A DNA stretch of 64,000 nt from Elmis aenea (taxonomy: Eukaryota > Arthropoda > Insecta > Coleoptera > Elmidae): contig OX393577.1 in the NCBI GenBank assembly GCA_947652605.1, positions 24,431,466 through 24,495,465 on the forward strand. The letters are read 5' to 3'. The notes beneath the pieces are model-generated. The model had not been told where the DNA came from and searched no databases. It was given only the letters and a program-made list of their open reading frames with translations. A program made the position numbers and the translations under genes. Shown in pieces: positions 3,295 through 61,375 of the stretch; within the stretch, counting starts at the first letter, position 1, and each line of letters starts with the position of its first letter.

Positions 3295-5304
3295 AGGTGC
3301 GTTCGGGACGCACGCTCCTAGATTGGAGTGGATTGGACAGGATTGGAGTAAGATTGTAATCACGTGGTCTCAGAGCCTCAAAGAGTAAATCTTAGGTGCG
3401 TTCGGGACGTACGCTCTTTTTGCTTTATTTGCTCTTTTTTGCTCCACAGCGTTCAGGACGCGACTTTGGAGTAAAAAAGATCGCTCCGAAGGGCGTTCGG
3501 GACTGCATAAGTGGAGTAAATAAATCTACTCTAATTTGCACCACCTCTGAAGCTGGGGCAAGCTGAGCTCGCGAAAGAAGACATGCGCAGTACGGATTGT
3601 CTACGTTTGAATTCTTTGAATTGCCAGGTACAGCATAAGAATAAGATACAGTTAACATCCAGGCTTCGTGTTATTGTGTTGCATTAGTTAACAACAATTT
3701 CTTGTGGACAGTAATTAACTTTCGATGTAATTCCCTATTATTAAAACAAAATTTTGGGAAGTTAAATCGTTTCATATCATGACATTTTACATCAATTTTA
3801 TAACCAAATAATCTAACAAATTCGAAGCAATACAATTTGTTGCTTGTTTTACTTACAATGATGTCTGATTAGACCGGATTACAACAAAATAGTGAGATTA
3901 CCTTTATAGGTATTTGAAATATCCGCTAATTTTCTGCACTTACACGTCCCGAACGCACAAGATTTACTCTTGGAGGCTCTGAGACCACGTGATTACAATC
4001 TTACTCCAATCCACTCCAATCTGGGAGCGTGCGCACAAGAGGTGCGTTCGGGACGTGTAAGTGCAGAAAATCAGCGGATATTTCAAATATAAAGGTAACC
4101 TCACTATTTTGTTGTAGACCGGTCTAATCAGACATCATTTTAAGTAAAACAAGCAACATCACCTGTTTACAAAACCATGGCAAACTTTGATCGTAAAATT
4201 TTCACAAAATTAGCCATATCTCAGTTATTTTTTGCAACACATATATTAAACTATATATTTCGAAAAGTTAAAGAACGCTCTTTCATATAAAGTCATGGCC
4301 AACTAAGTGTTTCCATTTAAAAAATTTAAGTTTATTTAATACTCGAAATTCAAGATTGCTAAAAAATTTTAATTTTGTTTTCAAATTAAGCATTGAAATG
4401 TTAATAAAAAAACCTTCATAACATTTTGTTCTATTTTAATAAATAAAGAAGTTATAGCAGATTTTCAAAAATTATGAAATTTCATTTTTCGCCTATAGTG
4501 CCAAAATGGAAAGCAATATGAAAAATCTGATTACACAGGCGTTCTTTTCTCAAATAAACAGCCCAAGAAACCAATATCAGATTTTCGCTAACTGTTATGG
4601 CAACCAAGATACCCTGTAAAACATTCGAATGTGGTCCGCCCTCTACATGAGGTGCGTTCGGGACGCACGCTCCCAGATTGGAGTGGATTGGACAGGATTG
4701 GAGTGAAATTGTAATCACGTGGTCTCAGAGCCTCCAAGAGTAAATCTTGTGCGTTCGGGACGTGAAGGTGCAGAAAATCAGCGGATATTTCAAATATAAA
4801 GGCAACCTCACTACTTTGTTGTAGACCGGTCTTATCAGACATCATTGTACGTAAAACAAGGAACAAATTGTATTGCTTCGAATTTGTTAGATTATTTGGT
4901 TATAAAATTGATGTAAAATGTCATGATATGAAACCATTTAACTTCCCAAAATTTTGTTTTAATAATAGGGAATTACATCGAAAGTTAATTACTGTCCACA
5001 AGAAATTGTTGTTAACTAATGCAACACAATAACACAAAGCCTGGATGTTAACTGTATCTTATTCTTATGCTGTACCTGGCAATTCAAAGAATTCAAACGC
5101 ATCCGTAATGCGCATGTCTTCTTTCGCGAGCTCAGCTTGCCCCAGCTTCAGAGGTGGTGCAAATTAGAGTAGATTTATTTACTCCACTTATGCAGTCCCG
5201 AACGCCCTTCGGAGCGATCTTTTTTACTCCGAAGTCACGTCCCGAACGCTGTGGAGCAAAAAAGAGCAAATAAAGCAAAAAGAGCGTACGTCCCGAACGC
5301 ACCT
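3295..5304. repeat. Nested foldback repeat with AGGTGCGTTCGGGACG ends
   Basis: Ends AGGTGCGTTCGGGACG and CGTCCCGAACGCACCT. Arms of about 450 bp (3393-3880 against 4860-5304) are inverted copies; further copies of the terminal motif at 3393, 4035 and 4651 show that elements of one family inserted into each other. No transposase. The same family hit exon 36. Confidence 0.8.
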
Positions 5305-9314: not shown

Positions 9315-9784
9315 GATCCCTAGTTACGACAGGAGTAAATGAGTCATACATACTTAAAGACCTTTTTAACACGCAATTATCTAATTTAGTAACAAATAAA
9401 GCTATTAATAGTAGTTTCATGACCAAAGAAAAATATGATGTGCTCAAAGATAGAATAAAAATATTAAAAAGTACATGCACTGGTAAAACTTCAAGCGATT
9501 ATCAAATACTTAAACGTTATGATGTAGCCAAAGTGGGAAATTGTGAGAAACTTGTGTATCCCATCTCTGAAGCAAACTCAAAAATTCGAATTTATGTTTG
9601 CACTGAAGAAATATTTGATATAATACATGAAACGCATCTGGCTATTGGTCATGGAGGAAGAAATAAGATGATGCAACAACTTCAGAAGACTTTCAAAAAT
9701 ATTACATTTGAGGTTGTCATGCTCTACATTAACTTATGTGAAAGATGTCAACAAAAACCGAGAGTCATAAAAAACAGAATATAA
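9315..9784 (+). CDS. Terminal exon 5: integrase-type H2C2 zinc-binding domain
   Basis: 156 residues after a strong T-rich acceptor (9305-9314), entering in the lola array phase and open to TAA. It has no C2H2 finger. Residues about 95-150 match the H2C2 integrase zinc-binding domain of Gypsy/Ginger/Maverick-type integrases and KRBA2/SCAND3-like host genes: H-L-A-I-G-H-G-G-R-N-K-M, 28 residues from the second H to the pair C-E-R-C. The N-terminal part (KEKYDVLKDRI...) resembles the linker before that domain. The DDE core is missing: the frame stops ten residues after the C-x2-C pair. Intact codons and a matching splice site suggest a captured domain rather than a transposon relic. BTB fusion is inferred. 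Confidence 0.72.
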
Positions 9785-16714: not shown

Positions 16715-17476
16715 AACTGTTATAAGTTATTAAATAAAATGTAAGTATATGTATTTCGATGTGAAGTGTTATAGCGGTGTCTTATAATGTTAAGTTTTGT
16801 TGTTTGTCAAATGATTTTAAATACTGTACTGTGCATGACTTTAAAACATTTTACTCAGTTCCAATTACAAAAATAAAATTTGAAAAGTTAATTATTAAAA
16901 ATAAATTTCAATTGAATACTACTGTCAAGTATTCCAATATTTTAAATAAACATAATTTCAAGTGAAGAATGAATGTTTTTGTATTTTATTACTCTGATCA
17001 AAATACTGATGTAAACTAATTTATCTGTAAATTTAGTGATAAATAAGAGACTTCTCAATATTTATTTTATGTGAACATCATCTACAGCTACACCATACAA
17101 AATATACTGATTTACTTAAAAAAATGTGGTTTTATTTTTTATTTGTAAGGGATTGTAAATTTAATTTTTCATTTTTAATCATATTATATTTAAAATTAAT
17201 TAAATATTAAAGGTATGTAGAAGTAGCAGTACCCAATTTAAAAAAAGTTTTACTCAGACTATTAAGTTTATATTAACAGATCGTTTTATTTATATGATTA
17301 TCTTTTTGATAATGTCAAAATTATTGTATTGCATCAAAATTTAATTTTAATAGCGGCATTCTTTACATTTTCCTCCAAAAATTTATAAGTTTACACTTCT
17401 TAGATGTCATATTAAAGTCTACTAAGTAGTCAATTTTGTATGTTTTTTGTTACTAACGTAATATTGTTTGAAACAG
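16715..17476. other. Intron before exon 11, nothing recognised
   Basis: No repeat ends or TTAA-flanked terminus found near exon 11, so no piggyBac remnant surrounds it. Confidence 0.5.
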
Positions 17477-17712
17477 GTCCACCATCTCTGTCAGTGTTTG
17501 GAAAAGCTATGTATAAACAAGCTAGAACAAGATGTTCCTCTGTACCACATGAACAACGCTTTCTTAATGTAGGTGAACATATGCCTATTAAAGGCAACAG
17601 TAGAAGATGCGCTCACTGCAGTACCAAAAAACAACCAAAAAGATCGCATATGATTTGCTGTAAATGTAAAGTTGCTCTGTGTCTGGAATGTTTTGGCCCA
17701 TTTCATATATAA
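17477..17712 (+). CDS. Terminal exon 11: piggyBac-type C-terminal cysteine-rich domain
   Basis: 78 residues; acceptor TTGTTTGAAACAG, array phase, open to TAA, then AATAAA at about 17730. It has no C2H2 finger. Residues about 40-77 follow the cross-brace zinc finger at the end of piggyBac transposases: an H-M-P lead-in, R-R-C-x2-C, a basic spacer, then I-C-C-K-C, x4, C, x2, C, F, x3, H. All expected Cys/His positions are present. The upstream 38 residues also resemble the stretch before that domain in piggyBac proteins (VGEHMPIKG). No DDD catalytic core is present. Intact reading frame, splice phase and a poly(A) signal suggest an exapted domain serving as an alternative lola end. The piggyBac family uses this domain to bind its terminal repeats; binding here is inference. 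Confidence 0.75.
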
Positions 17713-24303: not shown

Positions 24304-26239
24304 CAGTGAGCTCGCGTTATAAGCAACCCACGATATAAGCAACTCGCGTTATAAGCAACACTCAATATAAGCAACTATCGTATCAAAGTACACGATATAA
24401 GCAACTGTCAGTGTAACAGTTAAAAATACAAATATCTAAAATACTATTGCAGATATAACAATGAAATTTTATATCTGAGCGTTATGGTATTTTTCGGATT
24501 CGATGGAAATATTAAGGTTGCAATACGACTTCCGGTTCAACCGGAAACGGACTCAAACTTTGAAATTTTAAATAGAACATCTGTATATTTTTGCATTTTT
24601 GAATTTGTCTTAAAATTTACTTTAATAAATGTAAAAGGTTATATGGGTCTAAAGTCAACAGTTTTCAAAATATTTACATTTTTACGAAAATTTTGAGTGA
24701 TATATCACTTTCAGTTTTTTTTTTTAACATTCAGGTTATTTAAAAGGGCAATAAAATATCGTGTGAAATCTAGATTAACAATAGATTTTTTAACAATCAT
24801 TTTATTTTTAGGAGATTATTAATATACAGCGTCATTCAAAACGTCTGCAACGAATGGAAAAGTTTTTTATTATATTTTTCTCAGAAAATTGTATTCTTGA
24901 TAAAAATTGGTGCATAGTCTAAAACTAATTTTAAGATTAAAAAAGTTCAATAAAAAATCATATGACGCTAGATATTAGTGATTTTTGAAATATTTTAAGA
25001 GATACAAAAAAAATTATGGACAGAGTTTTTAAAAATCCCAAAGTAAGGCTAGATTTAAATTTTGACGGTCAAATTAATTTCAATTTATATTTTTTAAGAA
25101 ATTTTAACATTTAAAAAGTCTGCAACAAATGGAAAATTTTATTTTTATCGAAAAAAGTTATTAAGAATCTAAAAACCGAACTAGGTTTCAATTCTGAGGG
25201 TTGAATTCTGATTTTTATTTTTTACGAAATTTTAACATTCAAAAAATGAAAAACCATTAAAATCTAGTGTCATATGACTTTTTATTAATTTTTTTAAATC
25301 TTAAAATTAGATTTAGACCATATACCAACTTCATTAGGAATAAAATATTCAGAAAAATCGATAATAAAAAACTTTTCCATTTGTTGCAGACTTTTTGAAT
25401 GTTAAAATTTCTTAAAAAATAAAAATTTGAATTTGACCGTCAAAATTTAAATCTAGACTTATTTTTGGATTCGACATAACTTTTTTCCTACAAATTTTTT
25501 TTTAACTCTTAAAATAAGAGCCCTTTACACTTACAAATATTTCAAAAATCGGTAAAATCTAGTCATATGATTTTTTATTGAACTTTTTTCATCTTAAAAT
25601 TAATTTTAGACCATGCACCAACTTTTATCAGGAATAAATTTTTTTGAGAAATTAATAATAAATTTTTTTTCGATTTCTTGCAGACTTTTTGAATGACGCT
25701 GTATAATAATATAATAAACTCGTAGGTTAAATTACTAAAATTTTTTGGCTTTATATAATTTACCAAAGACCATAAGTTCAATTTATGATTGTCGGTGGAA
25801 TTAGCACACGGTATAATAGTACCTAACTCGTTGCTTAGATATTTTTCTCCCGGGAATATTTTTCTTACGTGTATGAACAAGAGTTTTGTCCGGTAAACAC
25901 TTGTAAAACAAGGCCGTTTCATCCGCTCTGTATACTTGCCATGAAATCACATCATATTTTTTTATTTGAGAGATGTACAAGTACATAGATCACGACTAAG
26001 GGTACGTGGCACACGCGTATTTCGTTTGACATAGGTACGTACAGATCACCATAGCAACGCGACCACGATCGCATTGTTATGGTGTAAACTTTTATTTATA
26101 GTTTTACTACTAAAAACAAGATTTATTTATGTTAAAAATTGAATCGTTTCTATTTCAATCATATAAGCAACTTTCACGTTATAAGCAACTTTTAGATCGG
26201 AACTGGCCGCCGTTAGTTGCTTATAACGCGAGCTCACTG
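24304..26239 (-). mobile_element. pogo/Tigger-like element with transposase fragment
   Basis: Ends CAGTGAGCTCGCGTTATAAGCAAC and its complement, within TA. The terminal GCAACxCGxxxTATAA motif is repeated near the left end. On the minus strand (25990-25735) ADETALFYKCLPDKTL, GRKISKQRV and, after a frameshift, CANSTDNHKLNLW match the DDE region of Tigger/jerky transposases. Most of the gene is missing, and the 24450-24800 stretch is a fragment of the 54697-56517 family. Confidence 0.78.
24827..25701. mobile_element. Palindromic element inside the pogo-like element
   Basis: Ends CAGCGTCATTCAAAACGTCTGCAA and TTGCAGACTTTTTGAATGACGCTG, TA on both sides. The motif repeats inside (25100-25130, 25380-25400), so this is itself a nested or foldback copy. 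Confidence 0.7.
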
Positions 26240-28605: not shown

Positions 28606-28787
28606 GCTTTGCTTGTTCTAAATGCAAAAAAGTTTATAAACAAAAACACAATCTTGGACGTCATCTGAAACATGAATGTGGGAGGAGTCCTTCAAGAAAG
28701 TGCCCCTATTGCAATTTTGCTTCATATAGAAGAAATGATTTGAGAATGCATGTGTTTACGAAACATAACATAGTAATGGAAAAATAA
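28606..28787 (+). CDS. lola: lola terminal exon 15: zinc-finger pair, tandem copy of exon 16
   Basis: 60 residues after AATATTTTTTCAG. Finger 1 CSKCKKVYKQKHNLGRHLKHEC; unusual linker GRSPSRK instead of GKEPxF; finger 2 CPYCNFASYRRNDLRMHVFTKH; tail NIVMEK. Differs from exon 16 at about eight residues, mostly in finger 1 and at the D/Y position of the second helix (RRNDLRMH against RRNYLRMH). Confidence 0.95.
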
Positions 28788-29456: not shown

Positions 29457-29638
29457 GTTTTGCTTGTCCCAACTGCAACAAAGTTTATCGACAAAAACAC
29501 AATCTTGGACGTCATTTGAAACATGAATGTGGCAGGAGTCCTTCAAGAAAATGCCCTTATTGCAATTTTGCTGCATATAGAAGAAATTATTTAAGAATGC
29601 ATGTGTTTACTAAACATAATGTTGTAATGGAAAAATAA
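29457..29638 (+). CDS. lola: lola terminal exon 16: zinc-finger pair, tandem copy of exon 15
   Basis: 60 residues; the acceptor AATATTTTTTCAG is identical to that of exon 15. Finger 1 CPNCNKVYRQKHNLGRHLKHEC; linker GRSPSRK; finger 2 CPYCNFAAYRRNYLRMHVFTKH; tail NVVMEK. AATAAA overlaps the stop region. Introns on both sides are also duplicated, so the copy was made at DNA level together with flanks. Both copies keep all metal ligands, which argues that both are under selection. Confidence 0.95.
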
Positions 29639-33124: not shown

Positions 33125-33289
33125 ATAAATATACTTTCGTACATTACAATTTTGTATGTATTTAATGCCCAATTATCAATGAAATATAGTTGTAATTATG
33201 TTGTTTTTATTATTAAATGTGCCACCTTTTAAAATTTACTTTACATATTTGATAAGGTGTTATTGATCTTATAATGTGTTTTGTTTCAG

Positions 33290-33525
33290 GTGAAATTTTG
33301 GCAAGCGTAAAACCAGGTTATACATGCAATACATGTTTACGCACTTTTTGTGCACTTCAAGTGTTTTTAAAACACAAAAAGTTTGAATGTAACAGTGAAT
33401 TATATTTTGTTTGTGCATCTGAAGGCTGCAGATACAGATCTACTTCCAAAGCAAATCTTGGGAAACATTGGATTAGGGTGCATCGTAACAATAAAATTAA
33501 GTGTTTTTTATCACAAAACATATAA
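33290..33525 (+). CDS. lola: lola terminal exon 20: zinc-finger pair, divergent first finger
   Basis: 78 residues; acceptor GTTTTGTTTCAG. Finger 1 CNTCLRTFCALQVFLKHKKFEC replaces the usual Y-K-H/Y core by FCALQVF; linker NSELYF instead of GKEPxF. Finger 2 CASEGCRYRSTSKANLGKHWIRVH is C-x4-C. The tail NNKIKCFLSQNI is hydrophobic. All ligands kept. Only 165 bp separate it from exon 19. Confidence 0.93.
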
Positions 33526-37245: not shown

Positions 37246-38263
37246 GTAATCATCATCAGTGTACTAATTGCAATAAATTTTCTAAATATAGAGAAAGTCT
37301 TTTTTCTACTCATGTATGTGAAAGTTGTCATTTTTTTACTGCCTACCCTACATGAAAGTTTTATTTTCGTCTTTAGTGGCGAAAATGATGTCACTGTCAA
37401 TGTCAAAATCAAGTTGTAAAATCTATGATGTTTTTTCTCATAATAAACTAAAATTGCGTTAGTATTCTTATCAAATAATTTAATTTTAATGTAGCATTTT
37501 ATATTTTATATAAAAGCCTAAGGATGGTACAAAAATTAATATTAAACATATTTTGTTTGCAGGTTATAATTTTATTTATGTCAATGTCAGTGTGGTGGTG
37601 TCGCTATGGAAATGAAATGATTAATTAAAACTTTATACATAACTAGATGAATTACCCGGCGTTGCACGGGTGATTACAATTCTCTTTTATCAATCACAGA
37701 CTACTCGCGCCCGGCGGACGTTCCCAGATTATTAATCACCGACTACTCGCGCTCGCGGTCGGCTGACGTTCCCGGCCGTCCTTTATACGACGTTTAATCC
37801 GTTGGGTCCTAAATAGTAACTGTGCAAAATTTGGACCCGATCGGTCAACGGGCCTAGGATTCTATAGCGAACAAACAAACAAATAAACAAACAAACAAGC
37901 TCTTTTATATATATAGAAGAATAAATTGTCATTTGGTTCGTTTACATTAACTTTCGTTCTATAATACTCCTATAATTTTAATTTCGTAGAAAAAAGCATT
38001 TACGACTTGAGATGAAATCAGTTTTTTTCGTTCGTGAAATTTTCTCACTCGCCACTTTGCTGCTCGAGACAAATCTCACCTCACGAAAAAAACTGGACTT
38101 TCATCTCTTGTAAAATATACTATTAAGGCATATCAATTATGAATGTAGAAATGACCCAAAGTTTTCTTGTCATCACTGTAACTACAAATTTAAATATAAG
38201 TTGCACCTTCGTATTCACAAATTAAAAAGGCACGGTGCTTTTATCGACCACTGGAAAAAATAA
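37246..38263 (+). pseudogene. lola: Broken lola exon 24, zinc-finger pair split by an inserted element
   Basis: The 5' half (37246 to about 37313) follows a good acceptor (TTTGTTTTTAG) in array phase and encodes most of finger 1: CTNCNKFSKYRESLFSTH. The reading then runs into foreign DNA and stops at 37357. The missing half resumes at about 38129: HINYEC, RNDPKF, then a complete finger 2 (CHHCNYKFKYKLHLRIHKLKRH) and stop TAA at 38261-38263. The roughly 818-bp insert shifts frame, and a CAT occurs at both joints as a possible target duplication. Sister of exon 25. No splice pair I can see restores the frame. Confidence 0.85.
37314..38128. mobile_element. Composite insertion inside exon 24
   Basis: About 815 bp between the exon halves. 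It contains AATTACCCGGCGTTGCACGG (37652 on) and GGACCCGATCGGTCAACGG, then a CAAA-rich tail (37870-37900), a block seen widely in insect repeats. A downstream imperfect hairpin (about 38002-38112) has GAGATGAAATCAGTTTTTTTCG facing CGAAAAAAACTGGACTTTCATCTC. No transposase frame seen. Possibly two insertions. Confidence 0.6.
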
Positions 38264-38403: not shown

Positions 38404-38612
38404 GCTCATCGAAAATGTACCTAGAAGATAAAAAATTCATGTGCGGGAAATGTAATAAACGTTACAAAAATAAAGAAAGTTTATTCCGTCACATTGAGTA
38501 CGAGTGTGGAGTGGAACCAAAGTTTTTTTGCTCATATTGTGACTATAAATCAAAGCATAATGCAAATGTACGCAGACATACAATTAAACAGCACAAAACA
38601 AAACTTTTGTAA
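38404..38612 (+). CDS. lola: lola terminal exon 25: zinc-finger pair
   Basis: 69 residues; acceptor ATTTTAATTTTAG. Finger 1 CGKCNKRYKNKESLFRHIEYEC, linker GVEPKF, finger 2 CSYCDYKSKHNANVRRHTIKQH, tail KTKLL. The only intact member of the 24/25 pair, 140 bp after the broken exon 24. AATAAA about 10 nt after the stop; only 121 bp separate the stop from the homeodomain exon. Confidence 0.94.
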
Positions 38613-38733
38613 ATAATTAAAATAAATATAGAATCAAATACAAAACTGATCGTTTGTTATTGTGTCACATAGCTCTTCTAATCAACTTAAAAGAAATAAA
38701 CTTTTGTACAGTCTACAGCGGTTTTTATTGCAG

Positions 38734-39117
38734 AAATCCTGCAAGGAATATTACCTTCTAATATGGATATTATTAAAACGTTAGAATCAAATATTGCATC
38801 ACCTGGATCCAGTCAGCAACATCTTTCTAGAAGGATAAGAACTACATTTGAAAAGCATCAACTTGGAATGTTAAAAACATATTTTTCTGCCAAACAACAT
38901 CCAAACTCTGAGGAAATTAAACAGCTAAGCCTAAAGACTGGCCTATCAACGAGAGTTCTGCAGGTATGGTTCTATTTTAAACTAGAAATATTGTCATACC
39001 TATGTAATTCATTTGTAGGTCTGGTTTCAAAATGCTAGAGCAAAATGGCGAAAGAGTCACTCTGATAGTGGACAAAGTGCACCTGATACAATAACAATGG
39101 GTCAATGCCAACCATAG
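38734..39117 (+). CDS. Terminal exon 26 (two exons): LIM-class homeodomain
   Basis: Acceptor GGTTTTTATTGCAG, then AA completes the shared codon, the same phase as the finger exons. Exon part 38734-38963, intron 38964-39018 (GTATGG...TTTGTAG, 55 nt), exon part 39019-39117; 109 residues in all. After a 31-residue leader, residues 32-91 form a full homeodomain: R5, F8, L16, F20, L40 and the helix-3 invariants W48, F49, N51, R53, with Q50. The helix-3 string VLQVWFQNARAKWR and YF at 19-20 match apterous/Lhx2/Lhx9 best. The intron sits between positions 46 and 47, a site used in LIM-homeobox genes, so it looks copied from genomic DNA, not retroposed. No LIM domains nearby. A tail SHSDSGQSAPDTITMGQCQP ends at TAG. 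Reading through the intron gives VWFYFK and a stop at 39036-39038. Fusion to the lola BTB part is inferred from phase and position. Confidence 0.82.
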
Positions 39118-39814
39118 CAATAAACAAAGTTATCACCAAAAAATATTTGACATAGAACAAAATGTTAAATTGCTTACTTTTAACTTTAAGATATGTATGC
39201 ATAGTTTATAGAAAAAGTATTATATTGGAAAGCAAACAAAATTTTGAAAATTTTGTCGTAGTATTTTTGTTTTTGTATTTGCTAAATGTGGAAATATTTA
39301 TTACAATTTTGAAAACAAAAGTCAGTTTTAGTTGCAAACTGTACTTAAATTAAATGCTAAAATCTCATTAACTGTTATGATTATGTTTGTAAGTTAACAT
39401 TTTAATGTGCAGTATTTATGTAATAGTTTTTTTTTCATTTTAAAAACCTACAATTTTTTATTTTACAAAAGAATTCAGATGTTACCTGATATTGTAGAAT
39501 AAAGCATAACGAATATAAATTAAGTTCTTTTTTATTATCTATTTAGAAGTAAAGAAATTATGATCTTGATTTAAATGATTTGAGAGCTAACAATCAAAAT
39601 TAGGCTGCAGAAGTTTTAACCAGTTGCTGTAGTTTAAAAATGTTCCGATTATTTGTTGTAGAAAGTGCTACGGAATATTTTTAAAAATTATTAAATGGTG
39701 TCCCTAAAAAATGACTGTTTAATCCTGCTTAACATGTCATAACTCTAAAGTGGCATGGATATACAGATGTAGTGTATTAAGACACAAATAAATATTAACT
39801 TCATTTTTTTTTAG
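39118..39814. other. 3' region of the homeodomain exon and intron
   Basis: AATAAA overlaps 39119-39124 just after the homeodomain stop and again near 39499; no other feature. Confidence 0.5.
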
Positions 39815-40116
39815 GTAAATACAGATTTGAAGCAATGGTTGCAAGAGTAACACAGGATGGAAGATACTGTTGTTCTTGTGGTTCAAAATATAAACACAAG
39901 CGTAATCTCCAACAACATCAAAGACTTGACTGTGGAAACAGAGTCGGAATGTTTGAGTGTTCATGTGGTTCAAAATATAAACATTTGCGAAATCTTCAAC
40001 AGCATCAACGATTTGACTGTGGTAGAGAACCACGTTTTGCATGTTCTTATTGCTTTTTAAAATTTCGTACCAGATGTAAGCTAAAATTACATGAAATGCG
40101 TCATTCCTGTGTGTAA
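39815..40116 (+). CDS. lola: lola terminal exon 27: three zinc fingers
   Basis: 100 residues after TTCATTTTTTTTTAG. Internal duplication of finger 1: GRYCCSCGSKYKHKRNLQQHQRLDCG and then ECSCGSKYKHLRNLQQHQRFDCG, followed by a C2H2 finger CSYCFLKFRTRCKLKLHEMRH. The C2HC fingers use a C-x1-C start (CSC; in the first copy a CCSC could still give x2), which is not standard. Repeat period is about 96 bp. Sister of exon 28, which has the single-copy state. Confidence 0.93.
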
Positions 40117-40414: not shown

Positions 40415-40635
40415 ATTATGATGCATTTGAAGAAGATATTAATTATGATGAAAACCAAAGATTTCATTGTCTTTGTGGTCGTAAATATAAACACCAACGA
40501 AATCTTCAACAACATCAGCGATTTGATTGTGGAAAGGAACCACGGTTTCGGTGCGACTATTGTCCTTTTAAATTTCGAACAAGATATAATCTTAAAGTGC
40601 ATTTAATGCAACATTTTAAAACCCAAAAAGAATAA
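40415..40635 (+). CDS. lola: lola terminal exon 28: zinc-finger pair with C-x1-C first finger
   Basis: 73 residues; acceptor ATCTTCTTTTTCAG. Acidic leader DAFEEDINYDENQRF, finger 1 CLCGRKYKHQRNLQQHQRFDC with only one residue between the first two cysteines, linker GKEPRF, finger 2 CDYCPFKFRTRYNLKVHLMQH, tail FKTQKE. Shared NLQQHQRFDCG and F(K)FRTR link it to exon 27. Confidence 0.93.
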
Positions 40636-41576: not shown

Positions 41577-41935
41577 ATGATATCGAACTTGATGATGAGG
41601 AATACATGCCTTTACATTTATCCCTACCCATAATTGTAAAAAAGAAAATAAAATCATCCACGCCAAAATCAATTTTGAAATCGGAAAATCACAATATGGA
41701 GTCACCTGGTTATGACTGTTCCAACTGTGGCCGATTTTACAAATTAAAGAGTTCTTTGCGCAACCACAAGAAATGGGAATGTGGAAAAGAACCCCAATTT
41801 AAGTGTTCTTACTGCTCTTATCAAGCCAAGCAAAAGATGCACATGTCTAGACATATGGAACGAGTCCACAAAGAAGTTGACTACGCTGCACTTTACACTC
41901 AAATGATCAAACTGGAAGCACTTGAAAAGAAATAA
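41577..41935 (+). CDS. lola: lola terminal exon 29: zinc-finger pair with long charged leader
   Basis: 119 residues, the longest finger exon here. Acceptor CATAATTTATTTCAG. A 45-residue leader has an acidic start (DDIELDDEEY) then a basic segment (VKKKIKSSTPKSILK), possibly a nuclear localisation signal. Finger 1 CSNCGRFYKLKSSLRNHKKWEC, linker GKEPQF, finger 2 CSYCSYQAKQKMHMSRHMERVH, then a helical tail (VDYAALYTQMIKLEALEKK). Confidence 0.95.
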
Positions 41936-48372: not shown

Positions 48373-48760
48373 ATGCCAGTATTTTACTAATGAAGAAATC
48401 TGATGGTGCTCATGTATGTTCTGTGTGTCATCGGTCATATAAGCATCTTCAAACTTTACAATTGCACAAACGACACGAATGTGGACAAGAACCAAAGTAT
48501 TACTGTAAATATCCTCTCTGTAAATATAAAAGTAAATGGAAAGGCAATTTAAAAAATCATATCATTAGTCATCATAACATATCCGATAATAAAGTTTACG
48601 ATTACATGTCCTACACGGGTTAGTTCCTGGTAAATTACTTAAATTTGTCACAATGATATTTAAGTTTATTATTAAAAAATATATTTTATTTCTGCATAGT
48701 AAAATTAATGTTTCAAGCTGAATGTGGTCTTTGAATTCAACTTTTTGTATGCATATGTAT
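47597..48760. repeat. Segmental duplication, copy A (with exon 32)
   Basis: ACACCTTGCATAGTTCGACGAAG at 47600 matches 60068; similarity continues through TACCAGCTAAATGATTGTGCAG, GAGGGAACAATATTACTGTG, the exon, and GCTGAATGTGGT after it. Confidence 0.85.
48373..48623 (+). CDS. lola: lola terminal exon 32: zinc-finger pair, duplicate of exon 40
   Basis: 83 residues after TTGTTGTGTTTTCAG. Leader ASILLMKKSDGAHV, finger 1 CSVCHRSYKHLQTLQLHKRHEC, linker GQEPKY, finger 2 CKYPLCKYKSKWKGNLKNHIISHH (C-x4-C), tail ISDNKVYDYMSYTG. Differs from exon 40, 12.6 kb away, at about nine residues; the upstream intron is duplicated too. Confidence 0.95.
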
Positions 48761-52092: not shown

Positions 52093-52331
52093 ATGCAACA
52101 AACGGCAGAACCACTTGTCCAAATTGTAATAAAGTGTATAAAAATATTAATACTTTAAAAGCACACATAGGACAAGATTGTGGGACGCAAAGGGAATTAA
52201 AATGCACATTGTGTACATATAAATGCAAAAGAAAATATGTGCTTATGCAACATATAAAATTTAAACATCCAGAAGTTACTGAAAGGAGAGATGAGTCTGA
52301 TTCATTAAGCAATGTACAATTGTTTATGTAG
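52093..52331 (+). CDS. lola: lola terminal exon 35: zinc-finger pair
   Basis: 79 residues; acceptor ATTTTGTTTCAG followed by AT. Leader ATNGRTT, finger 1 CPNCNKVYKNINTLKAHIGQDC, linker GTQREL, finger 2 CTLCTYKCKRKYVLMQHIKFKH, then a polar tail PEVTERRDESDSLSNVQLFM. Closest to exons 33 and 36. Confidence 0.94.
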
Positions 52332-53402: not shown

Positions 53403-53632
53403 ATGTAATAAACTGCAAAAGGACTTGTCCAAATTGTCATAAACAATACAAAAATGGTAATACGTTACAAGTGCATATGAGTCGAGATTGTGGAAACCAA
53501 AAGGAATATAAATGTGCATTGTGTACTTTTAAGTGCAATAGAAAATATAGTCTCAAGAGACATTTAAAAAATAGACATAATAGTCGCGTTCGAGACGCTG
53601 CTCCCAGAGCAGAGCGGAGTGGAGCGGCGTAG
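53403..53632 (+). CDS. lola: lola terminal exon 36: zinc-finger pair with transposon-derived tail
   Basis: 76 residues; acceptor TTACTTTGTTTCAG. Leader VINCKRT, finger 1 CPNCHKQYKNGNTLQVHMSRDC, linker GNQKEY, finger 2 CALCTFKCNRKYSLKRHLKNRH. After NRHN the sequence enters a repeat (GTCGCGTTCGAGACGC...), so the last 16 residues (SRVRDAAPRAERSGAA) and the stop come from that element. The native stop and poly(A) signal have been displaced; fingers are intact. Confidence 0.9.
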
Positions 53633-56796: not shown

Positions 56797-58020
56797 TACA
56801 AATTGAAGGGGCTATTGCTAAAAGGGTACAAGTGCATTTTGACTAGTATCGAGTAATAGAGTTGTAAAGTTAATTGCTTTCTAAGAATTCACCGTTGTGG
56901 TTGGAATATTTTAAATATATGTAAGATGTGCAAAAATAACGTACTTTCTAATTGCTGAACAGAAATTTTGATCAACTAAGTAACTTTTGAAATTTAATGT
57001 ACTTATACCTTTTTTGCACAAATCATTTATTGTACTTGAAAAGATTAAACAAGAAAATGCAATGTTTCAGAAAAAAACGACATTTTATTACAAAAATAAT
57101 TAGGTATTCATAGTCTGAAGCTACGTCATATACAATATTATCAGAATCATATTCCTCATTGACGTCATTTTGTTTTTCTGCTTTGTCTTTTTGTTTATTT
57201 TGTGGGTGTTCGTGAGCCATATTTATGTTATATGAATGGTGCACTGGCGGTATGAAATTAAGGAGAGTTTGAAGATTGGTCCATTTGGCGAATTTAATTT
57301 TGACTGGATTTTTACATGGTTTTGTAAAAGTGCTATTTATGGATAAAGATAAACGTCCATGCTCGGAAGATTTGCAGGCACACTTCAAGAATGGAAAGGA
57401 GCTTTCCGAAGTTGGTTTAAACTGGAAAGAAAACGCTTCCCTTTCATATAGAAAATGAACAATTTCTCTGAATTTTACAGCGGTTCCAGTGGTGTCTTTC
57501 TTCGGATCTTTCATCATTTTATTAAGTTCCGCCAAAAAGTAAAAATTTTCTTTGGTCATTTCATGAACCTTAAATTTTTTTGACGAACTCCTAATAACCT
57601 GCCTCCAGTGGTCAGGAATAAATACTTGAGGATTTTGCCTCTTTTTTTTCTATAATCAAGTCCTCATTAGTGTAGGAGGGCCTGTGGTGTAAGCTGCTGA
57701 AGTATTTAAAGATACGGTACCATAAAACCGCATAATATCTTGCCACAAACTTAAGCAAACGTTAAGAAATAACTAACTCGTCTTTAGTGCAAAATAGGTA
57801 CAAGTGATTTTATACCCTTTTTGCAGAAAACGTTATGAACTTTTAATTTCGTAGATTATAATATTTACCTCATTGATGGCACTAGTAAGCCTAAAATGCA
57901 CTAACTTGAATCTTTTTTGCACTAATAGAGTGCAGCTTTAACTTTAGATGTATGTACTTATATCAAAATGTAAAAAAAATCACTTATACCCTTTTTGCAC
58001 CAACCCCTTCAATTGTAAAA
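56797..58020 (-). mobile_element. DNA element with partial coding region
   Basis: Ends ACAAATTGAAGGGG and CCCCTTCAATTGT. The subterminal motif TTATACCCTTTTTGCA recurs at 57004, 57810 and 57985. It encloses the minus-strand frame described separately. Confidence 0.65.
57023..57637 (-). CDS. Transposon-related protein fragment, unidentified superfamily
   Basis: On the minus strand a frame of about 200 residues runs from QVFIPDHWRQVIRSSSKKFK through MTKENFYFLAELNKM to LLNFIPPVHHSYN and an acidic stretch (EEYDSDNIVYD). The block with KFREIVHF and IPPVHH resembles a module I associate with insect transposon proteins, but I cannot name the superfamily. The upstream end meets a stop, and the last 25 residues look random. 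No catalytic motif seen, so probably a relic. Confidence 0.45.
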   Translation of the reverse strand, partial: QNPQVFIPDHWRQVIRSSSKKFKVHEMTKENFYFLAELNKMMKDPKKDTTGTAVKFREIVHFLYEREAFSFQFKPTSESSFPFLKCACKSSEHGRLSLSINSTFTKPCKNPVKIKFAKWTNLQTLLNFIPPVHHSYNINMAHEHPQNKQKDKAEKQNDVNEEYDSDNIVYDVASDYEYLIIFVIKCRFFLKHCIFLFNLFKYNK

Positions 58021-60065: not shown

Positions 60066-61375
60066 GGGACACCTTGCATAGTTCGAGGAAGTTGATGTGA
60101 TCCCAAAAACAATATTTATGGCATATTTAATATGTCAGTTTGAAATTCCTTTAAAATGATGCAATAGCAATAATTAAAAGTATTAAATTCATTTTGCACA
60201 GCTACTGCAAAATTGTTAAACGAAAACCATCTGTCAAAGCATTTTTAAAATATCTTTTTATAGACAAATATATTTATGGCATATTTAATATATGTCAGTT
60301 TGAAATACGTTTAAAATTATGCAGTAGCAATAATTAAAAGTATTACCTGTGGTATTACATTTATTACATTTTGCACAGCAACTGCAAAATTGTAAAACGA
60401 AAACCATCTGTGAAAGCATTTTTTAAAAATCTTTTTATAGACAAATATATGCTTAAAATTATTAAATTCATTCTCCATTAACGTGTATTGATGCAATAGC
60501 AACATTTTTATTCACAATTTGCATTTTAAGCTGAAAAAATTGATGACGAGTAGGTTACGTTGCATAAAATTCTTGTTTGTTTAGTATAGCGCAATAATTA
60601 AGCGAAATTTTACAAATTCATTGCGTGAAAACGATTAAACACAAGAATATTTGTATACAATAATCAAAATTAATCAGGCGTTCTGTAACATAAAAATGAA
60701 ACCATCAATTTTGATGTTTCTGCAGACTTCTACCGATTTACTACTGGTACGTTACATGATAAACATGTTAATACCAGCTAAATGATTGTGCAGTTTGTTG
60801 AAATGTACTTAAAATGAAGTAAATAGAATGTTTTTCCACTTAATAGTGATTACGCTAGTTACATTGGTGAAAAATTAAAGCTTTTCTTATTTTTATCAAT
60901 GTCGTTAATACAGAGGTGTAGTTAATTTACAATTGTTGGGTTTCTTTAGAGGGAACAATATTACTGTGAACTAAAGCTAATTGTCAATGTATTAAATATT
61001 TATAACTAGTTGCATTTGTTGTGTTTTCAGATGGCAGTATTTTACTAATGAAGAAATCTGATGGTGCTCATGTATGTTCTGTGTGTCAGCGTTCATATAA
61101 GCATCTTTACACTTTACAATTGCACAAACGACACGAATGTGGACAAGAACCAAAGTATTACTGTAAATATGCTCTCTGTAAATATAAAAGTAAATGGAAA
61201 GGCAATTTAAAAAATCATATCATTATTCATCATAAGATATCTGGCATTAAAGTTTACGATTACATGTCATATACTGGGTAACTGCTGATAAATACAGATA
61301 ATTTGTTTCTGCATAGTAAAATTAATGTGTTATCAAGCTGAATGTGGTATCTCAATTCTGATTGTTATACGCATA
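60066..61375. repeat. Segmental duplication, copy B (with exon 40)
   Basis: Counterpart of copy A. It contains an extra internal tandem duplication at about 60116-60450, where the ATGGCATATTTAATAT...CTTTTTATAGACAAATAT unit occurs twice. Confidence 0.85.
61031..61281 (+). CDS. lola: lola terminal exon 40: zinc-finger pair, duplicate of exon 32
   Basis: 83 residues; acceptor TTGTTGTGTTTTCAG, identical to exon 32. Finger 1 CSVCQRSYKHLYTLQLHKRHEC, linker GQEPKY, finger 2 CKYALCKYKSKWKGNLKNHIIIHH, tail ISGIKVYDYMSYTG. All ligands kept. Changes fall at helix positions Q-to-Y in finger 1 and S-to-I in finger 2. Confidence 0.95.

Follow-up and report, generated by a model that had tools for sequence, protein, structure and literature searches.

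The window, by which we mean the whole 64-kb stretch of DNA that was analysed, probably contains at positions 38734–39117 (+ strand) an exon pair captured from an apterous/Lhx9-type gene, which on the evidence of the sequence would serve as an alternative 3′ end of lola and give rise to a BTB-homeodomain isoform, a reading to which we assign a probability of roughly 0.7. The coordinates in the preliminary description were exact to the base. Exon A (38734–38963, + strand) follows a phase-1 acceptor (TTTATTGCAG, ending at 38733), and encodes an apterous-type linker of ~31 aa and residues 1–46 of the homeodomain. It is separated by a GT-AG intron of 55 nt (38964–39018, + strand, phase 0), located at homeodomain position 46/47, from exon B (39019–39117, + strand), which carries the recognition helix from V47 onwards (VWFQNARAKWR), a short tail and the stop codon TAG (39115–39117). 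The AATAAA polyadenylation signal (39119–39124, + strand) lies 1 base past this stop, so that the previously claimed combination of an own stop and an AATAAA is indeed present. Exons A and B together encode 109 aa, with a tail of ~20 aa past the homeodomain.

Pfam assigned residues 33–89 of the 109-aa product to the Homeodomain family (PF00046, E = 2.3e-20), with Homeobox_KN falling below the Pfam cut-off. The best solved structure was that of Lhx9 (2dmq, 71 bits), followed by the non-LIM structures of an engrailed chain (54 bits), the alpha-fetoprotein enhancer-binding protein (51 bits) and aristaless (48 bits), and then by other LIM-homeodomain structures (Isl1 40, Lhx4 38 and LMX1A 35 bits). 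The residues W48, F49, Q50, N51 and R53 are all present, and the product has a homeodomain of the Lhx2/9 class; the earlier recognition of a full apterous/Lhx2/9-like homeodomain with intact helix-3 residues thus agrees with Lhx9 being the top structure and with the presence of W48, F49, N51 and R53. A phylogeny against LIM-homeodomains had been proposed as a check, and a tree was built (126 rows, using 129 of 242 columns), but the homeodomain row was found on an extreme end branch without a supported position, and naming the apterous paralogue that served as source was dropped for this reason. The closest single sequences among 125 relatives were P0001 and P0003 (both 38/60), two short related proteins which share the motif KQLSLKTGL with the homeodomain ending, either by common ancestry or by convergence. 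Viral contigs scanned with the protein P0002 and with the homeodomain protein contained no relatives, nor did the scanned bacterial and archaeal genome contigs, and Rfam returned nothing at the gathering threshold.

The homeodomain exons are located within an array of C2H2 zinc finger exons, of which 37 were catalogued in the window, all on the + strand, each with an open frame when a G is set before the acceptor and each with its own stop codon, with a median spacing of 1307 bp between array endings. This catalogue was made from 39 plus-strand rows after removal of 38114–38263 (decayed) and 25839–25988 (without a true finger), as well as of one row on the minus strand that was antisense to an exon; it represents at least 37 finger exons, since at least one further finger frame (33256–33525) was left out, and two of the catalogued acceptors score very low and may be misplaced. 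An AATAAA or ATTAAA was located within 60 nt of the stop in 24/37 finger exons, against a background of 24% at 5000 randomly chosen positions. The finger exon at 41577–41935 (+ strand) was used for gene identification, and gave 30 protein matches, with 23 containing a BTB domain (PF00651) and 22 named longitudinals lacking; the ten best of the matches with this name are presumably beetle proteins. Since this exon matches annotated longitudinals lacking isoforms with a BTB domain, the finger array around the homeodomain is, by protein similarity, identified as lola. The BTB exon of lola itself was not found in the 64-kb window by tblastn with a Drosophila sequence as query. The homeodomain exons are positioned between two lola endings of the same strand and splice phase, an upstream C2H2-pair ending (38404–38612, + strand, phase-1 acceptor) and a downstream ending whose sequence pattern shows three finger units (39815–40116, + strand, phase-1 acceptor), the latter without a match to any Pfam family at 1e-3. 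By its position in the array, its phase-1 G-codon acceptor and its own stop and polyadenylation signal the homeodomain ending resembles the lola endings, and it lacks their usual content of a C2H2 finger pair. It is best called an atypical ending outside the finger series, because Pfam gives a homeodomain and not a C2H2 finger pair.

The preliminary description also proposed that the homeodomain exon shares its splice phase with the lola finger exons, and this was borne out, as the chosen acceptors of the finger exons were phase 1 in 37/37 cases, a count obtained with preference for a phase-1 acceptor where several were possible. With a phase-blind rule, taking the most pyrimidine-rich [CT]AG, 35/37 finger exons were phase 1 and 34 kept the same acceptor, and this rule also selected 38734 for the homeodomain. 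The 38734 acceptor ranks within the top 2.6% of all AGs using a matrix derived from the 37 finger acceptors, and when each of these was left out in turn, 10 scored lower and 27 higher than 38734. In 11 listed beetle lola isoforms the common part ends with ...AHRDSQ, and the next residue is A in 8, G in 2 and V in 1 of these isoforms, all of them encoded by GNN codons; hence the shared lola exon ends in the first base of a codon, G. The junction codon of the homeodomain ending would read G+AA (E), while those of the 37 finger exons encode G (22), D (9), E (3), V (2) and A (1). A phase match is expected by chance in about 1 in 3 cases, and phase 1 may have arrived with the apterous exon. A scan for non-finger exons with a looser pyrimidine cut-off indicated further acceptors near the homeodomain at 38712, 38719, 38813 and 38817. 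Use of 38719 would lengthen the ending by five in-frame codons; both 38719 and 38712 are weak according to the finger-exon model (top 27% and 20% of AGs, respectively) and were rejected. The same looser scan also gave non-finger frames of ≥70 codons on the minus strand as well as in phases differing from that of lola, and an open frame behind an acceptor is therefore no evidence by itself.

Several other elements of the window touch on the history of the array. The decayed lola half-exon at 38114–38263 (+ strand, NILLRHINYECRNDPKFSCHHC...) has a partial first finger and no acceptor was found for it, which suggests that endings die in the lola array. Based on their translations, three pairs of look-alike endings (28606–28787 and 29457–29638, 48373–48623 and 61031–61281, and 52093–52331 and 53403–53632) have the appearance of local copies, and the three-finger ending at 39815–40116 looks internally duplicated, with a related ending adjoining at 40415–40635. 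Transposon-like frames are present inside the array at 17416–17712 (+ strand) and 57023–57649 (− strand), both without a Pfam match, with the former resembling a piggyBac end. A second non-finger frame (9315–9784, + strand, ~156 aa) matches Pfam Integrase_H2C2 (7.8e-06), has its own stop, and starts right behind a T-rich acceptor in the lola phase that belongs to the top 0.7% of AGs; there was no solved-structure match better than E 0.5. This frame may represent a zinc-binding ending captured from a transposon, or may simply be a transposon fragment, and in the first case would be another recruitment of a foreign domain by the lola array.

The similarity to apterous extends beyond the homeodomain. 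A protein search with the homeodomain gave 173 matches (sizes of ~330–1048 aa), and all of the best 120 of these 173 carry LIM domains (PF00412). The five best full-length matches were insect LIM-homeodomain proteins (four Lhx9 or Lhx9-like, one hypothetical), with 49–54% identity over 78–90% of the query. The alignment with apterous/Lhx9 starts at the first codon of exon A and spans the linker ahead of the homeodomain, which reads EILQGILPSNMDII...SPGSSQQ here versus EILHRGDLSSSMESL...SPG in apterous. The linker alone had a median score of 34.5 against the best 120 of the 173 proteins, a value reached by 0.6% of 2000 shuffles. The linker motif, starting at E (59 proteins) or D (5 proteins), was present in 64 of these 120 listed proteins and in none of 24,000 shuffles, although in a few of these the residues directly preceding the motif are unrelated and the register may be wrong. 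In the apterous protein P0012 of the moth Diatraea, an insertion of 27 aa falls precisely between ...ASTAL and EILHRG, which indicates an exon junction at this position in an apterous gene; as read from the protein, this junction is compatible with phase 0 or 1. That the homology starts at an exon junction fits the duplication of an exon pair, at the level of the sequences compared. The intron at position 46/47 of the homeodomain is presumably located at the place of the apterous intron, and its retention disfavours an RNA-made copy. The capture by DNA duplication put forward in the preliminary description is supported by this retained intron together with the linker homology starting at the exon junction. 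LIM domains were said to be lacking, and none was detected in the window by tblastn with nine Lhx9-like proteins, so that the two LIM domains expected N-terminal to the homeodomain of such a gene were not seen in this search.

The homeodomain has diverged considerably, with 35/60 positions identical to the commonest sequence among 125 relatives, compared to ≥49/60 for the full-length relatives among the best 120 of the 173 matches. None of the 25 changes is located in positions 43–57 (hypergeometric probability 6e-5, for a block that was picked after seeing the changes), and the longest unchanged run had p = 0.0015 by permutation. Of these changes, 17 are conservative (positive BLOSUM62 score). 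In 5000 neutral simulations to the same identity, none spared positions 43–57, none had as many conservative changes, and 0.1% reached the observed mean BLOSUM score, while 7% had no stop over the 60 homeodomain codons, making the open frame on its own weak evidence. Judged by this pattern of substitutions, the homeodomain has diverged under protein-level constraint on DNA binding, as the unchanged block 43–57 and the mostly conservative changes point to past selection on the protein. This signature of selection may predate the move into lola.

The divergence is also an argument for a dead copy, in which an apterous exon pair in the array, perhaps once used, is now unexpressed: a homeodomain at 35/60 contrasts with a near-invariant family, array endings do die, as illustrated by the decayed half-exon upstream, and neutral evolution would leave the frame free of stops with a probability of 0.07. 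We consider this explanation improbable, since the 109 codons are open, the donor and acceptors are intact and AATAAA directly follows the stop, with the recognition helix wholly spared and the substitutions conservative. Alternatively, the exon pair could belong to a separate small gene nested in lola, with its own promoter just upstream of 38734 and encoding a short homeodomain protein without a lola part, whose translation could start, for instance, at the ATG at 38763, which is in frame in exon A ahead of the homeodomain. Predicted proteins of a related type consisting only of a homeodomain do exist (five, of 61–123 aa), so that homeodomain proteins lacking LIM domains may be present elsewhere, although two of these lack the start of the homeodomain and the predictions may be incomplete. 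Such a gene is unlikely here, as only 121 bp separate the stop of the preceding finger exon (38612) from the acceptor, the residues ahead of the ATG align with apterous as well, and a good acceptor in the lola phase is placed exactly at the start of the apterous homology.

The same exon pair would also make a natural 3′ terminus for an apterous-type gene, and its acceptor would equally suit a LIM-linker exon of its own. On this reading, lola would be interleaved with a divergent LIM-homeobox paralogue that lies on the same strand, has its LIM exons beyond the window and terminates in these two exons. This is very improbable, because tblastn with nine Lhx9-like proteins detected no LIM exon either in the 38.7 kb upstream or elsewhere in the window, and because 20 of the 37 lola endings in the catalogue are located upstream of the homeodomain, all of them carrying a stop of their own. 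A misassembly that placed an apterous fragment within lola is more improbable again and can hardly be sustained, given that the local base composition does not depart from the range seen elsewhere in the window, that finger exons lie close by on either side, and that the homeodomain is unlike any of the 125 relatives (38/60 at best).

Comparison with known systems supports the description of the array as lola and sets the homeodomain apart. Like lola generally, the array has a single orientation, phase-1 ends, own stops and often an early polyadenylation signal, and its spacing of 1307 bp is close to the 1400 bp in Nasonia, where according to PMC5000498 more than 180 alternates, spaced ~1400 bp apart and each with one or two 3′ exons, are joined to a single hub exon. 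The same study reported no lola expansion of comparable size in groups other than Hymenoptera. Nevertheless, these 64 kb contain no fewer than 37 lola endings, which reach both edges of the window, and one of these endings has beetle isoforms as its closest matches among the proteins named lola. Known lola ends contain C2H2 or C2HC fingers or no finger, as given in the available parts of PMC1947980 and PMC11426971, where a homeodomain end is not mentioned, unlike the situation described here. Joining in trans is also possible for the lola ends of Drosophila (PMC4667647). Insect BTB factors including mod(mdg4) combine a BTB start with varied C-terminal domains such as FLYWCH and the Pipsqueak HTH (PMC11426971 and PMC4667647), and the predicted protein is like these in having a BTB start with another DNA-binding domain, but unlike them in that this is a homeodomain, which is not among the domains given in the available parts of these two sources; the stem "homeo" has no occurrence in the main text of PMC11426971. 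The TTK-type BTB domains, including that of Lola, form hexamers and bind each other, as described in PMC11426971.

The homeodomain ending shares with Apterous and Lhx2/9 the homeodomain class, the linker motif and residues 43–57, and differs from them in that LIM domains were not found in the window, 25/60 positions are changed, the tail is ~20 aa and the exons are located among lola ends. The BTB-homeodomain isoform is predicted from phase and position only. No BTB domain was present among the best 120 of the 173 protein matches of the homeodomain, no BTB-homeodomain protein was described in the titles and abstract openings surveyed, and a literature search for that combination yielded no open-access paper; the claim of a new architecture therefore stands within these searches and is limited to them. 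No annotated lola gene with the same exon appears among the best 120 of the 173 matches, although an old exon might have shown up in such genes.

In the proposed mechanism, the linker-homeodomain exon and the next exon, with the intervening intron, would have entered the lola array as a DNA copy from an apterous/Lhx9-type LIM-homeobox gene. The shared lola exon, ending in the first base of a codon, G, would be spliced to 38734, with the lola part and the homeodomain end joined either in cis or in trans, and the product would consist of the Lola BTB domain, the common part and the 109 aa with an Apterous-type homeodomain, without LIM domains. Sites with a TAAT core are those bound by such homeodomains, and this protein should bind these via the unchanged residues V47, Q50, N51 and A54. 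The recruitment of Chip/LDB1 by Apterous needs the LIM domains, and without these Chip/LDB1 would go unrecruited. The BTB domain would link the protein to other BTB proteins of the Lola/TTK type, and the isoform would either direct Lola complexes towards Apterous-type targets or act at these as a competitor of Apterous. More tentatively, and at somewhat less than even odds, lola in this insect lineage may encode a working BTB-homeodomain factor by which, independently of Chip/LDB, Lola complexes reach Apterous/LIM-homeodomain sites, and the lola array may be generally able to recruit foreign domains.

If the capture is real, it would be a case of natural exon shuffling between two major developmental transcription factor families, with the exon boundaries still readable, and would extend the set of DNA-binding domains used by insect BTB factors by the homeodomain. 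It would also provide a LIM-less rival of Apterous under the control of lola. Any phase-1 exon with its own stop landing in the array could at once be an ending, and the question of how arrays of alternative 3′ ends gain new domains would become testable.
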